From Sideroxydans sp. CL21 (GTDB lineage Bacteria; Pseudomonadota; Gammaproteobacteria; Burkholderiales; Gallionellaceae), in contig NZ_LR699166.1 of NCBI RefSeq assembly GCF_902459525.1, positions 1,314,501-1,378,500 of the forward strand: DNA of 64,000 nt, in the 5' to 3' direction. Shown here piece by piece: positions 15,961 through 20,715 of this stretch (positions are counted from its first letter, which is position 1; every line of letters starts with the position of its first letter). Position numbers and translations under genes: made by a program. A model generated the notes under the pieces. It saw nothing but the letters and a program-made list of their open reading frames with translations, did not search any database and was not told the origin of the DNA.

Positions 15961-16462
15961 AAATATCATCTTTCCTGATGGGCGAATGAAAACATGCAGG
16001 CGAATCCACCTATATCATTTACCTGGAATCTCCGTATCTGCGTGGGAAGCTCAGTTGCGTATTCCGGCCACTCGTGATCACCCGTTCCGGTAGGACGTGA
16101 TCAGCGATTCCGATTTGATCTGATCCCTCAATCCGCCGATCATGAGCACCGGAAATTACGGTCAACTGGTTTTGGGCATAAATGCAGCCATAGAATGAGT
16201 AGCGATCTAGTCAAGATGACAGGCCCAGTTTCGCCAGCAGCCGTTCACGAGTGGCTGCTTCGCGGCAGACAGAATGGCAACATGAATTACCGCTGTGTGC
16301 TGCGGAGCTTCGAATTGGGATAATCAATGTTCGCTCCCCGTAACATTGCCGCCAGTCAAAATTGCGAGGAGAATTCGGCAATAACGACCAACTGCAGACG
16401 TTCGAAGACGTTCTCCAAATTGGACTTTTGGCAAAATAAATAGTCGTACTTCATTAATCGGG
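15961..16462. other. Intergenic region holding the left island boundary
   Basis: About 500 bases without an intact gene. It contains the phased array at 16056-16135. On the minus strand at about 16215-16330 there is a short open frame ending in a run rich in Arg, Glu and Leu (RERLLAKLGLSS). It may be the decayed end of a lost gene, but I cannot name it. Confidence 0.5.
16056..16135 (-). mobile_element. IS21-like terminal array, left boundary of island
   Basis: Starting with TGCGTATTCCG at 16056-16066, three units of exactly 23 bases follow (16067-16089, 16090-16112, 16113-16135). On the minus strand each begins CGGA and carries a TGATCA-like core. The minus-strand end is CGGAATACGCA. IS21-family elements are known for several repeats inside each end and 5'-TG...CA-3' tips, and this fits. 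A diverged inverted copy lies at 20579-20632. No transposase gene remains next to it. The family name is an inference from architecture. Confidence 0.6.
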
Positions 16463-16990
16463 GTGTCGTTTTTGAATGCAATAAATCTGCGAAAACTTGC
16501 TGTGATAGGAGTTTTAGTCGTCGTTCCTCATCACGCTATGTGTCAGGAGGTCGCGGAAAATGAGGATCATTCTATCGTTCTACAAGTAGGCCCGGCAGTC
16601 GAACGAAATCTGAACAACAAAACATCCAACAACGGCGGCACTATTGCTGTTGAATTTACACCTATCGAAGATGTTCTCGAGATAGAAGTTGGTGCAACGT
16701 CGTTGAATTCCGCGGGCCAACGGGAGCTGGGTGGCGAGGTGTTGTTCAAGAAGCCTTACCACCTGTCCTCTACAACCGAAATCATGATCGGGGTCGGGCC
16801 ACAGATAGGTCGGAAATATCGAGGTGTAGATACTGGAACTTCATTCGGAGTAGCATTTGCCCTTGATTTAATGTTTTGGCCTACCAAGAACATCGGGTGG
16901 TATATCAGTCCAGAATTTGGATACGGAATCGGGAAAAGCAATGGCGAGCGATCTATCGGAGCCTCGGTTGGAATTGAGTTTGGCTTGTGA
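16463..16990 (+). CDS. Putative outer-membrane beta-barrel protein
   Basis: Unknown protein of 175 residues. It starts at GTG 16463 with a signal peptide (charged NLRK, then a hydrophobic run of about 13, then HHAMCQE). The mature part is made of short alternating strands (IVLQVGPAVERN, VGVG-type turns, FGVAFALDLMFW, ASVGIEFGL) and ends in a glycine-rich amphipathic strand, which suggests a small barrel in the outer membrane. I do not recognise a named family. Base composition is lower in GC than the efflux genes on both sides. First gene inside the island. Confidence 0.6.
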   Translation: MSFLNAINLRKLAVIGVLVVVPHHAMCQEVAENEDHSIVLQVGPAVERNLNNKTSNNGGTIAVEFTPIEDVLEIEVGATSLNSAGQRELGGEVLFKKPYHLSSTTEIMIGVGPQIGRKYRGVDTGTSFGVAFALDLMFWPTKNIGWYISPEFGYGIGKSNGERSIGASVGIEFGL

Positions 16991-17199
16991 GATAAGGCAT
17001 GCCTGGTCCGCTTTTAGGTGATGAGCAGACGGTGGTGTAAGTGAAGGTAAACAGGCAGAATGCGGCCAACAACAGCCGTTCGTAGGTGTCCTACAGTTCG
17101 TACAATCGCTGAAGATATATAGACCGTTTAGCATATTGCCTTACTGCGCTTTGCAGTCTAGAGTGCGCCCGTCTAATAATAGTCAATCGTTCAACGCCT

Positions 17200-18024
17200 A
17201 TGACTCCCGCTGAAAAACTAATGCACACTACTGTCCGGCTTGAATGCATGCTGGACGGCAATCGCACATCTACTGGAACTGGGTTCTTTTTCTCATTCAA
17301 AGTCGATGACAAAACACACGTCCCATTAATCGTCACCAACAAGCACGTAATAAATCAGTCGAAGGTCGGTACATTCGTTCTAACGAAAATGAACGATCAG
17401 GGTGAGCCAATCTTAGGTGCCACAGAGCGAATAGTTCTCGATAATTTTGAGAGTCTTTGGATAAAACATCCTGAAGAAAACGTCGATTTGGCGGCTTTTC
17501 CAATGGCTCCGCTTATTCATCAAGCCGAAGCAAAAGGCATCAAGTTCTTCGCTCCACCGATTGGAGAAGATCTACTTGCCACCCCTGAAAAGCTCGCCGA
17601 CCTATCTGGTCTCGATAACATAACCATGATTGGTTACCCGAACGGCATTTGGGATGAAAAGAACAACATGCCAATCGTGAGGCGCGGCATTACAGCTACG
17701 AACCCAAAGCATGACTACAACGGACTCCCAATATTCGTGATCGACTGCGCTTGTTTTCCTGGATCAAGTGGAAGCCCAGTTCTCATCTTTGACCAAGGCG
17801 GCTACCTTGATGCAAAAGGTAATCTCAACTTAGGTGGAGGTCGCGTCATTTTACTTGGTGTCTTGTTTGCTGGCCCTCAACATGTTGCCGAGGGAGAAAT
17901 TCAAACCATCGAGGTGCCATTAGCCCAAATGCCCATCAGCTTGTCCAAGATTCCGAACAACCTTGGTTTTGTCGTAAAGGCTCAAAAGATTGCGGATTTT
18001 AGGAAAATGTTTATACCAAAATGA
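17200..18024 (+). CDS. Trypsin-like serine peptidase domain protein
   Basis: Predicted protein of 274 residues with a chymotrypsin-fold peptidase. It has a glycine-rich first strand (STGTGFFFSF), the catalytic His in VTNKHVIN near residue 49, Asp in NVDLAAFP near residue 98, and the nucleophile Ser in FPGSSGSPVLIF near residue 191 with the usual GSSGSP box. So the triad looks complete. There is no signal peptide or PDZ domain, which sets it apart from DegP-type enzymes and suggests a cytoplasmic protease. ATG 17200 has no strong ribosome site. It overlaps a small downstream frame (ATGA). GC is well below that of the core genes, in keeping with transfer. Confidence 0.8.
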   Translation: MTPAEKLMHTTVRLECMLDGNRTSTGTGFFFSFKVDDKTHVPLIVTNKHVINQSKVGTFVLTKMNDQGEPILGATERIVLDNFESLWIKHPEENVDLAAFPMAPLIHQAEAKGIKFFAPPIGEDLLATPEKLADLSGLDNITMIGYPNGIWDEKNNMPIVRRGITATNPKHDYNGLPIFVIDCACFPGSSGSPVLIFDQGGYLDAKGNLNLGGGRVILLGVLFAGPQHVAEGEIQTIEVPLAQMPISLSKIPNNLGFVVKAQKIADFRKMFIPK

Positions 18025-18158
18025 ACGCGATGGGTTACGCTGAGACGGATGAAAGAATGAAATACGAAGGGCTGAAAACTGGTGCGGAGTGGACGCTTGC
18101 AGGTAATATCGTCGTAGGACAAAAACCGGCCAAGAACAGACAAGCCAAGCAGTTATAA
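18021..18158 (+). CDS. Small hypothetical protein coupled to the protease
   Basis: A 45-residue open frame whose ATG overlaps the protease stop by four bases (ATGA at 18021-18024), a usual sign of translational coupling. The product is basic and hydrophilic, ends in KNRQAKQL, and has no membrane segment or known family. The overlap and unbroken length support it; the short size keeps confidence low. It may instead be read-through sequence with no function. Confidence 0.35.
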   Translation: MNAMGYAETDERMKYEGLKTGAEWTLAGNIVVGQKPAKNRQAKQL

Positions 18159-18191
18159 AAACTCACCGAAATGTAATACTTAGGAGTCAAC

Positions 18192-18656
18192 ATGGAATCA
18201 CAATTCGTTGCTAATGTCCGAGAATCCGCAGAGGAATCATTCAGCTCTGGTTTATATTGCGCAGAAAGCGTTTTGCTTGCACTTGCCAAAGCTCAGGGCG
18301 TGAATTCTGAATTGTTGCCAAAAATGGCGACTGCTTTTTGCAGCGGCATGGCACGCACCAGCGGAACTTGTGGCGCTCTCACTGGTGCGATTATGGGTGT
18401 TAGCCTTGCTCTTGGCCGATCAAAAGCAGATGACTCGGTAAAGCCGTCATATGACGCTACTCAGCGCCTTATTGAAGAATTTGAACAGGAATTCGGAGCT
18501 CGTGATTGTCACGTTCTGCTAGGTTGCGACCTAAATACTCCGGAAGGACAAGCAACGTTTCGCGATAATCGTTTGGGGCAACAACGTTGTTTTAAATATA
18601 CCGGCAAGGCGGCTGAAATCTCCGCTCGCATTATTCAGAAACCAAATGAAAGTTGA
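18192..18656 (+). CDS. C_GCAxxG_C_C family redox-type protein
   Basis: Cytoplasmic protein of 154 residues with the cysteine pattern of the C_GCAxxG_C_C family. It shows YCAESVL near residue 22, FCSGMARTSGTCGALTGA near residues 50-67, and two or more cysteines in the C-terminal half (CHVLLGC and QQRCFKY). The family is thought to bind a metal or iron-sulfur centre and occurs mostly in anaerobes; its reaction is not established. The start follows TTAGGAGTCAAC. It lies about 30 bases after the small coupled frame, so it could belong to the same transcript. Confidence 0.8.
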   Translation: MESQFVANVRESAEESFSSGLYCAESVLLALAKAQGVNSELLPKMATAFCSGMARTSGTCGALTGAIMGVSLALGRSKADDSVKPSYDATQRLIEEFEQEFGARDCHVLLGCDLNTPEGQATFRDNRLGQQRCFKYTGKAAEISARIIQKPNES

Positions 18657-18855
18657 GTGACTGAAGTTGAGCGCATTGCCGACACTGGCATAAGTAATAC
18701 ATGACAGATGCAAATCGGCCAGGTGCTGACATTAGGATGCGGCGGCTTTACGGCGGGCAATTTGTCAACGTGATCGGCCGACGCCTGCCCATTTCGGTCA
18801 GTCGAAATTGTTAATGGTCATTCAACGAAAAGACTTCATCGTCAAAGGGGGCGGA

Positions 18856-19503
18856 ATGAAACGAAACGCATGGATTATTCTGGGCTACCTGGCTTTGATG
18901 ACAGCGGCGCATGCGGCAAGCTTTGATTGCAACAAGGCTGCCACCAAAACCGAAAAAATGGTCTGTGCCAGCCATGCATTGTCCAGGTTGGACGATGAGC
19001 TCGCCGATGTCTACAAGAAGGCGCTGGACAATCGGACAGACATCGCCAAGCGCGAATCCCTGATGGTGGAGCAGCGGCTCTGGCTCTCGAACATCCGCAA
19101 TGCATGTCGTGATGAAGACTGCGTGGATGAGGCTTATCGCATTCGCATCATTTATTTAAGTGGGCTGAATGCTGGACGTGAAGAGGAAAATTCCGCGGAG
19201 ACATTTGAGCTGGTCATGGAGCCACGAAAAGTAGAAGGGATAAAGAAAGATTTCCAGGACAGGATCGATCTCCGCGAAATTAATATCCATCTGCAAGACT
19301 GCCCGTTCATCCTTACAACCCCATGGGGTCGAGGTGAGGTAAATGTGGGATTATGTCACTATGGTTCGAAGCCAAATACAAAACTGACCATGCTGCTATG
19401 CAGCGAATCAATGGTTGGATATTTCGAAATCTCCCTGTCACCTTCTTGGGACTTGCTACAGGCTAAAAATTTCGCGAAGGCAAATTGCCTTAAAGGCGGC
19501 TAG
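18856..19503 (+). CDS. LprI-type (DUF1311) exported protein
   Basis: Protein of 215 residues with a signal peptide ending at AHAA (about residue 20). An LprI-like helical domain follows (about residues 21-105) with the family cysteines (FDCNKAATKTEKMVC, CRDEDC) and the RLDDELADVYKKAL pattern. In mycobacteria LprI inhibits lysozyme; in other bacteria the role is mostly unknown. The C-terminal half (about 110-215) has no recognised domain and holds three more cysteines. I chose ATG 18856, after AAAGGGGGCGGA, since it starts the signal peptide exactly. The next gene also encodes an exported protein and follows after 28 bases. Confidence 0.78.
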   Translation: MKRNAWIILGYLALMTAAHAASFDCNKAATKTEKMVCASHALSRLDDELADVYKKALDNRTDIAKRESLMVEQRLWLSNIRNACRDEDCVDEAYRIRIIYLSGLNAGREEENSAETFELVMEPRKVEGIKKDFQDRIDLREINIHLQDCPFILTTPWGRGEVNVGLCHYGSKPNTKLTMLLCSESMVGYFEISLSPSWDLLQAKNFAKANCLKGG

Positions 19504-19531
19504 AACTTGATGATTGCATGAGGTAAGGGTG

Positions 19532-20194
19532 ATGCAAAAGATAATGTGGGCACTAATGGTCTTAATGACAGCAATCTTCCACGAGGCATATGCGGCAGAT
19601 ACGTACAGCACGTGGGATGAGGAACTTCTTAAAAAATCCTTTGTGGCTGTGATTGGCCATGAAAAGCCAACGGAGGGTGCCGTGCTCGATAAGGCCCTTA
19701 CCGCAAATGACATGGGCAGAGCAAAGATGCCGAACCACAATCCATCCTTTCAGTTCTCGCAGCAACTTAGCAGCGTGTCATGTGAACTAGAACTGGCACT
19801 CATCTACAGAAATCTGTACTCAACTGACGGTGATGACGTCGATTCTGAGCGCCAGAGGCTACTCGATAAGTTGGAGCCATGGAGTTTTGGCGATGTAAAG
19901 CTGGGCGATGGCATCGTCAACCTAGGCATCATCAGCGAGAGTGAAATGCTGCCTCGGATTCAACAACTGGGTGCCTCATCATCGATCTTGATCGTCAAAT
20001 TTGCGCATCCAGCGTGGAAAGGAAACCGCGCATTGGTGTATGCGGAAGCTTGGTACGTTAACGGCAAGTACAAATCTGAGCTGCTCCACAAGAGCGGTGT
20101 CGGCGAGGGGATTGGACTATCGTTTAAGAGGCTTGATGGAGAGTGGAAGCTGACCGAACAACATACCCTGTGGCAAGGCGGCCCTTCGTTCTAA
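19532..20194 (+). CDS. Unknown exported protein
   Basis: Protein of 220 residues with a clear signal peptide (MQKIMWALMVLM... ending at AYA). I do not recognise a family. The mature part is mixed alpha/beta with no repeats, no membrane segment and one cysteine; it ends with a strand-rich region. The start at ATG 19532 follows GAGGTAAGGGTG and gives a clean signal sequence, whereas the longer TTG start adds six residues. Last gene of the island, probably co-transcribed with the LprI-type gene. Confidence 0.65.
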   Translation: MQKIMWALMVLMTAIFHEAYAADTYSTWDEELLKKSFVAVIGHEKPTEGAVLDKALTANDMGRAKMPNHNPSFQFSQQLSSVSCELELALIYRNLYSTDGDDVDSERQRLLDKLEPWSFGDVKLGDGIVNLGIISESEMLPRIQQLGASSSILIVKFAHPAWKGNRALVYAEAWYVNGKYKSELLHKSGVGEGIGLSFKRLDGEWKLTEQHTLWQGGPSF

Positions 20195-20715
20195 GCGCTG
20201 GATGGACACCAAGCCGCCTGTGTTGTTGGCAAGCACGCGATGAGTGCCCGCTTTCCTCCAACCGTAATGGCGGAAATGGGTAGCTTGCGGAATCAGGGTG
20301 AATGGCCGCTTTCGCGAAGCGAAAGATTAGAGCTCAACGGCAGGTAAGGGTTAGGAAGAGTCTTTTAGACTCACCAATTTTCATTGAATTGGAGGTCTCC
20401 TATTCTCCACCTCAAAGGTCGGGTATGGGTTGCGGTATCACACGCCTGTCTGGTTTCGGGCGTCGAAATTACTAGTTCGTCTGGCTCCTTGGGGGCGATG
20501 GCGGAATCCCGGGATGGGTGTTAGCCTCACCGCAATACGTCGGCAATGCACTCACAGTAGCCGACTGCGCAGAATAATCGGACTGAGTGATTACGTTGCC
20601 GGACTCAGTGATTAGATTCGACGGAATACGCAGTTTCAAATTGCATGGAAGTGAGATCGCAAAGGTGGTTGTAGCAATCTGACAGTTTGAAGCAGTTCAG
20701 GTTTGAGCCTATCAC
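20195..20715. other. Intergenic region holding the right island boundary
   Basis: About 520 bases without a supportable gene. A 61-codon frame at 20430-20615 is not believed. Short inverted motifs such as CTTTCGCGAAGCGAAAG (20310-20326) are present. The IS21-like end lies at 20579-20632, and the convergent efflux gene ends at 20716. Confidence 0.5.
20579..20632 (+). mobile_element. IS21-like terminal array, right boundary of island
   Basis: Two units beginning CGGACT and holding GTGATTA (20579-20599, 21 bases; 20600-20621, 22 bases) are followed by CGGAATACGCA at 20622-20632. The last 11 bases are an exact inverted copy of the left tip at 16056-16066. The inner units are related to the left ones but diverged. 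The flanks (CTCAGT on the left, GTTTCA on the right) show no target duplication. Confidence 0.55.

Follow-up and report, generated by a model that had tools for sequence, protein, structure and literature searches.

A 4.6-kb cargo element with IS21-type ends and no transposase gene in Sideroxydans sp. CL21, and related elements with other cargo

Introduction

Mobile insertion cassettes have been described mainly for insertion sequence (IS) families other than IS21 (IS231/IS4 and Xanthomonas elements). They consist of IS ends without a transposase gene around unrelated genes, and a cognate transposase acting in trans is needed to activate them (PMC3129680). A literature search, with most subscription journals outside its reach, found no mobile insertion cassette based on IS21. 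Two other arrangements bring together IS sequence and passenger genes. The transporter IS (tIS) retains its transposase gene. Its IS-type ends enclose passenger genes (PMC3129680, PMC9330008). In the composite (two-IS) transposon, IS sequence is found at both edges of the cargo. Finally, members of the IS21 family have multiple repeats at each end (PMC10122671). Their termini are TG...CA, the repeats point inward, and autonomous copies give rise to target duplications of 5-6 bp.

Here, we report on a segment within a 64,000-nucleotide stretch (the window) of the 3.77-Mb, single-contig genome of Sideroxydans sp. CL21, which belongs to the iron-oxidising family Gallionellaceae. An earlier note on this DNA had described the segment as low-GC cargo with IS21-like ends, with five or six genes unlike the core, placed between two convergent efflux operons. 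The segment (16056-20632; 4,577 bp; from here on, the 4.6-kb element) is indeed flanked on either side by an RND efflux operon, and the two operons are convergent. It contains five genes, all on the + strand (Table 1). Its TG...CA termini and the offsets of its repeats equal those of the IS21 family, and the 5-6-bp target duplications of that family are found at its sisters. However, compared to an autonomous IS21, it is without istA and istB and has unrelated passenger genes between its ends. It resembles a tIS in having IS-type ends around passenger genes, but has no transposase gene. As in a composite transposon, IS sequence is present at both edges; however, each edge is an end of ~100 bp, one per polarity, as in a single IS. 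The closest likeness is to mobile insertion cassettes, from which the 4.6-kb element differs by its IS21 basis, its asymmetric multi-unit ends and the piecewise exchange of cargo. To belong to that class, an element has to be mobilised in trans, and such mobilisation is putative here.

Results

The 4.6-kb element has IS21-type ends and no istA or istB

The leftmost 11 bp of the element, TGCGTATTCCG (16056-16066), recur as an exact inverted copy at 20622-20632, in agreement with the earlier note. The inward-pointing units that it placed behind these tips are also present, four on the left and two on the right. They are of the form NTCCG-N-TGATC, resemble transposase sites and have offsets of 6/29/52/75 in the left end and 6/28 in the right end. 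Taken by itself, the 11-mer is no rarer than expected by chance, with four copies in 3.77 Mb vs two for the reversed control; all four copies are ends belonging to three elements of the same kind. Tiling of the window on both strands gave 1,162 stretches of 110 nt, of which a single one contained four units; the mean was 0.03 units and the maximum elsewhere was two. Moreover, when the 100-bp ends are aligned with each other in inverted orientation, the score is 25.5, and the maximum reached by 3,000 random pairs is 21.

The same offsets (6/29/52/75 and 6/28) separate the units from the tips in autonomous IS21 of Aeromonas, Thiohalocapsa and Wenzhouxiangella. Because the unit arrays match the spacing in autonomous copies, the ends of the 4.6-kb element are of the IS21 type, as the earlier note had suggested. 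This end type lies ~245 bp ahead of istA in IS21 of Aeromonas, Marinobacter and Cupriavidus, and a scan of ~85,000 species genomes returned many IS21 of 2.4-2.9 kb with the order end, ~245 bp, istA, istB and opposite end. The tip is a common IS21 sequence and not a private signature of the 4.6-kb element. Using nine IstA proteins as well as IstA and IstB of locus L099 as tblastn queries against the whole window, we found no IstA- or IstB-like stretch, and the description of the segment as lacking a transposase therefore stands.

Just inward of the left end, a subterminal block at 16204-16427 has further copies that are not accompanied by an IS21 tip, at three sites elsewhere in the genome and also in congener G029 (loci L013, L014, L015, L051:15554-15608 and L053:4550-4600). 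This block is an intergenic repeat of its own.

Composition and cargo of the 4.6-kb element

The GC content is 48.7% within the 4.6-kb element, compared with 54.3% and 59.3% over the 10 kb on either side, and the comparison of codon use proposed in the earlier note points in the same direction, with GC3 values of 0.37-0.58 for the genes inside vs 0.60-0.78 for the flanking efflux genes. Inside the element, GC3 is uneven (0.37-0.47 in the left and 0.56-0.58 in the right cargo genes). The cargo was therefore probably not gained in a single event. The translation of cargo gene 2 contains all of the catalytic-triad-like motifs TNKHV, VDLAAF and GSSGSP. For cargo gene 5, searches of Pfam, NCBIfam and PADLOC gave no match.

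Table 1. Features of the 4.6-kb element and its immediate flanks (positions in the window)
Feature	Position	Strand	Description
Left flanking pentamer	16051..16055	+	TCAGT; absent from right side
Left end	16056..16147	+	Terminal TG; four inward units with 23-bp spacing, starting at 16062, 16085, 16108 and 16131
Left terminal and subterminal block	16056..16391	+	90% identical to E2
Cargo gene 1	16463..16990	+	175-aa exported protein; a small barrel according to the earlier note; without family match
Cargo gene 2	17200..18024	+	274-aa Trypsin_2 protease; PF13365, 1.4e-9; PADLOC PDC-S45, 7.9e-112
Central module in common with E2	18127..18722	+	95% identical
Cargo gene 3	18192..18656	+	C_GCAxxG_C_C family; PF09719, 3.2e-27; TIGR01909; frame intact
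Cargo gene 4	18856..19503	+	LprI-type exported protein; PF07007, 2.9e-6
Cargo gene 5	19532..20194	+	220-aa exported protein; no family assigned
Right end	20589..20632	-	Terminal CA (TG on - strand); two inward units, 20610-20626 and 20589-20604
Right flanking pentamer	20633..20637	+	GTTTC; no target duplication of left side

The same ends enclose other gene sets

The earlier note had also proposed a search for the same ends around other gene sets, and four such elements were found. Two are in the host genome, i.e. E2 (G000 C1:317584-319810; 2,227 bp) and E3 (G000 C1:3399696-3406576, L012:2197-9077; 6,881 bp), and two are in congeners (G008 and G029). E2 and the 4.6-kb element are 90% identical over 336 bp on the left and 141 bp on the right, and 95% identical over a 597-bp central module. 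In E2, this module also holds the C_GCAxxG_C_C gene, but with a different gene on either side; moreover, its reading frame is broken in E2 and intact in the 4.6-kb element. E3 carries genes for a 133-aa LRAT-like protein, an AAA/DUF4143 ATPase and a 1,377-aa NACHT protein. The G008 element (contig C16; 2,036 bp) has a single gene of 545 aa, and the G029 element (contig C16; 2,407 bp) has DUF7387/HicB-like, DUF4258 and DUF2283 genes. None of the four contains remnants of istA or istB.

Among 158 family members searched, the end type is present in just five genomes; G104 adds a solo end. In a plasmid search, the right end had no match and the left end matched only one distant IS21 end (Bradyrhizobium). 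No viral contig had the strict end pattern. Candidate pairs in Mesorhizobium, in Aidingimonas and on one G029 contig were rejected, their "right ends" being without units or target duplications.

Two further observations concern related ends. In Rhodocyclaceae bacterium GS29 (L095:1-3096), a related IS21-type end lies beside two small genes and a DUF262-type gene that matches NsnA (4e-30). Neither istAB in the examined DNA nor a right end was found at this locus, which is possibly another cargo element. In three Gammaproteobacteria, left and right IS21-type ends lie only 98-131 bp apart (L102:2056-2186, L132:1403-1500 and, with 120 bp, L085), and these pairs are candidate IS21 miniature elements.

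Evidence for movement

All four sisters are flanked by target duplications of 5-6 bp (E2, AACCC; E3, CCAAA; G008, AATGA; G029, GGATGA). Duplications of 5 or 6 bp also flank ten autonomous IS21 copies with this end type, and the chance of one such match is ~0.0012. Because the four sisters carry these IS21-sized duplications around other cargo, it is well supported that transposase-less IS21 cargo elements, as a class, have moved as units by the action of an IS21-type transposase.

By contrast, the pentamers that flank the 4.6-kb element differ from each other (Table 1). The empty site that the earlier note had looked to, with 16055 joined to 20633, was not found in 33 congeners; these are too divergent for a firm comparison, and the two efflux operons are never adjacent in the matches. 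In all, empty sites were sought in the genus for three elements, and no clean one was found. Thus, the proposal of unit movement by a non-autonomous element is well supported for the class, while for the 4.6-kb copy we can only infer it, because neither a target duplication nor an empty site was found. As for the flanks, native DNA to the left of E3 can be aligned with congener G025 exactly as far as the insertion point; on the right of the 4.6-kb element, the short motif TGCAATTTGAAAC is kept in G019 and stops at the boundary.

Possible sources of transposase

No matching autonomous helper was found in the host genome. The host has eight identical IS21 copies of 2,694 bp (L047:466-3159 and seven others) with the ends TGTGAACTTTCGG, and 5-bp target duplications are visible at the copies compared. 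Their termini read TGTGAACTTTCGGCG, and the units are absent from them. This IS21 is unrelated and was recently active, and because of the different ends we rejected the eight copies as likely helpers.

The closest autonomous relative found, when istA was sought beside 111 genome matches, is an IS21 of Azonexaceae (SSSZ01000044). Over 63 bp, one of its ends shares 87% identity with the left end of the 4.6-kb element. Next to this end lie an istB of 252 aa and an istA of 513 aa, both intact; the opposite end of this IS21 was not found. In G086, from the host's family, a 78%-identical istB lies beside the same end type, with istA present only as a 48-aa remnant. Congener G021 has a complete autonomous IS21 of 3.1 kb with the same unit spacing and a different unit sequence. 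As far as these searches show, a helper lineage is present in the neighbourhood and absent or decayed in the host genome.

Some IS21 copies were of note in their own right. The autonomous G021 copy, in which both istA and istB are intact, fills a whole contig from tip to tip (C5, L205; 3,114 bp) and is probably a collapsed multi-copy element. In Marinobacter persicus, an IS21 with an internal deletion measures 1,692 bp (L118:2175-3866), and in Aeromonas rivuli, istA is split by about 3 kb in an IS21 that has kept its 5-bp duplication (L101:782-6253).

Discussion

Based on these data, we suggest that the 4.6-kb element is probably a non-autonomous transposable element of the IS21 family that functionally would be a mobile insertion cassette. 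In this model, passenger genes would take the place of istA and istB between asymmetric four-unit and two-unit TG...CA ends. A related autonomous IS21 would provide the IstA transposase and its IstB ATPase in trans; these would bind to the 21-23-bp units, bring both ends together and insert the whole segment, with a target duplication of 5-6 bp as the outcome. The helper may belong to the IS21 lineage that is found in Azonexaceae and, as a remnant, in G086. Elements of this kind would also exchange cargo piecewise, as the 597-bp module with its differing neighbours suggests. The 4.6-kb element would have moved in the same way, with its duplication later lost by decay, by deletion of adjacent DNA or by recombination between elements. 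Most likely, it is either an older copy that has lost its duplication or a recombinant between elements, with adjacent deletion as another possible route; ISPve1, a member of the IS21 family, has been reported to delete DNA adjoining its insertion (PMC9330008).

The main alternative, which we regard as possible although clearly less likely, accepts that the class is real and holds that the 4.6-kb segment itself never was one moving unit. Instead, recombination or deletion would have joined ends from two IS21-derived elements. The missing target duplication, which sets this copy apart from all four complete sisters, fits such a history, as do the mosaic cargo, in which one module is 95% identical to that of E2 and has unrelated neighbours, the uneven GC3 and the deletions reported for ISPve1. 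However, both ends match the two ends of one sister, E2, at the same 90%, and no partner with a reciprocal flank was found among the copies examined. The earlier note had offered two decayed IS copies as an alternative; the similarity to a single element also argues against two such copies that are unrelated.

Decay in place is improbable. In this scenario, an autonomous IS21 decayed, host or island genes were later inserted in place of istAB, and the cargo never transposed. Both an IS21 with an internal deletion, i.e. that of M. persicus, and a partial IS21 in the host's own family (G086) are known. On the other hand, four cargo-bearing sisters keep their target duplications and none has remnants of istA or istB, and it is unlikely that five independent loci would all have kept both ends. 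Finally, a plain low-GC genomic island with tips that match by chance would fit the frequency of the 11-mer alone and the fact that low-GC cargo between operons is common, but is refuted by the four-plus-two unit arrays, which have the exact IS21 spacing, are unique in the window and have homologues at the ends of the sister elements.

Returning to the preferred reading of a non-autonomous IS21 element, several of the passenger genes resemble defence genes. The protease of the 4.6-kb element matches PDC-S45 (8e-112), which PADLOC lists only as a candidate defence family. In E3, the ATPase matches PDC-S01 (1.7e-169; PADLOC), and the NACHT protein scores above the NCBIfam cut-off for antiphage EruA (1047.9 vs 1000 bits). 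The 545-aa protein of the G008 element has a weak match to PDC-M14A, and E2 has no defence match. With only five complete elements, an enrichment in defence genes cannot be claimed. Moreover, ends of this kind are absent from the examined DNA around more distant protease relatives (32-38% identity) in other members of the order, and the protease gene is therefore not tied to this vehicle. It is a tentative and rather doubtful idea that Gallionellaceae carry transposase-less IS21 shuttles with cargo that is swapped piecewise and preferentially consists of single-gene anti-phage systems, and that ordinary resident IS21 can spread them. If true, an IS21 in the cell would spread defence genes that it does not itself encode.

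The movement of small defence and accessory genes is usually ascribed to phages, plasmids, integrons and large transposons. The elements described here are 2-7 kb in size, consist of IS21 ends and passenger genes only, and are inserted at several sites, with target duplications in the sisters. Across elements, the cargo includes defence candidates and toxin-antitoxin-like genes as well as an antiphage NACHT gene. Annotation that relies on transposases misses such elements, because they have none. The ends reported here permit a direct search for them and a test of their mobilisation by resident IS21.
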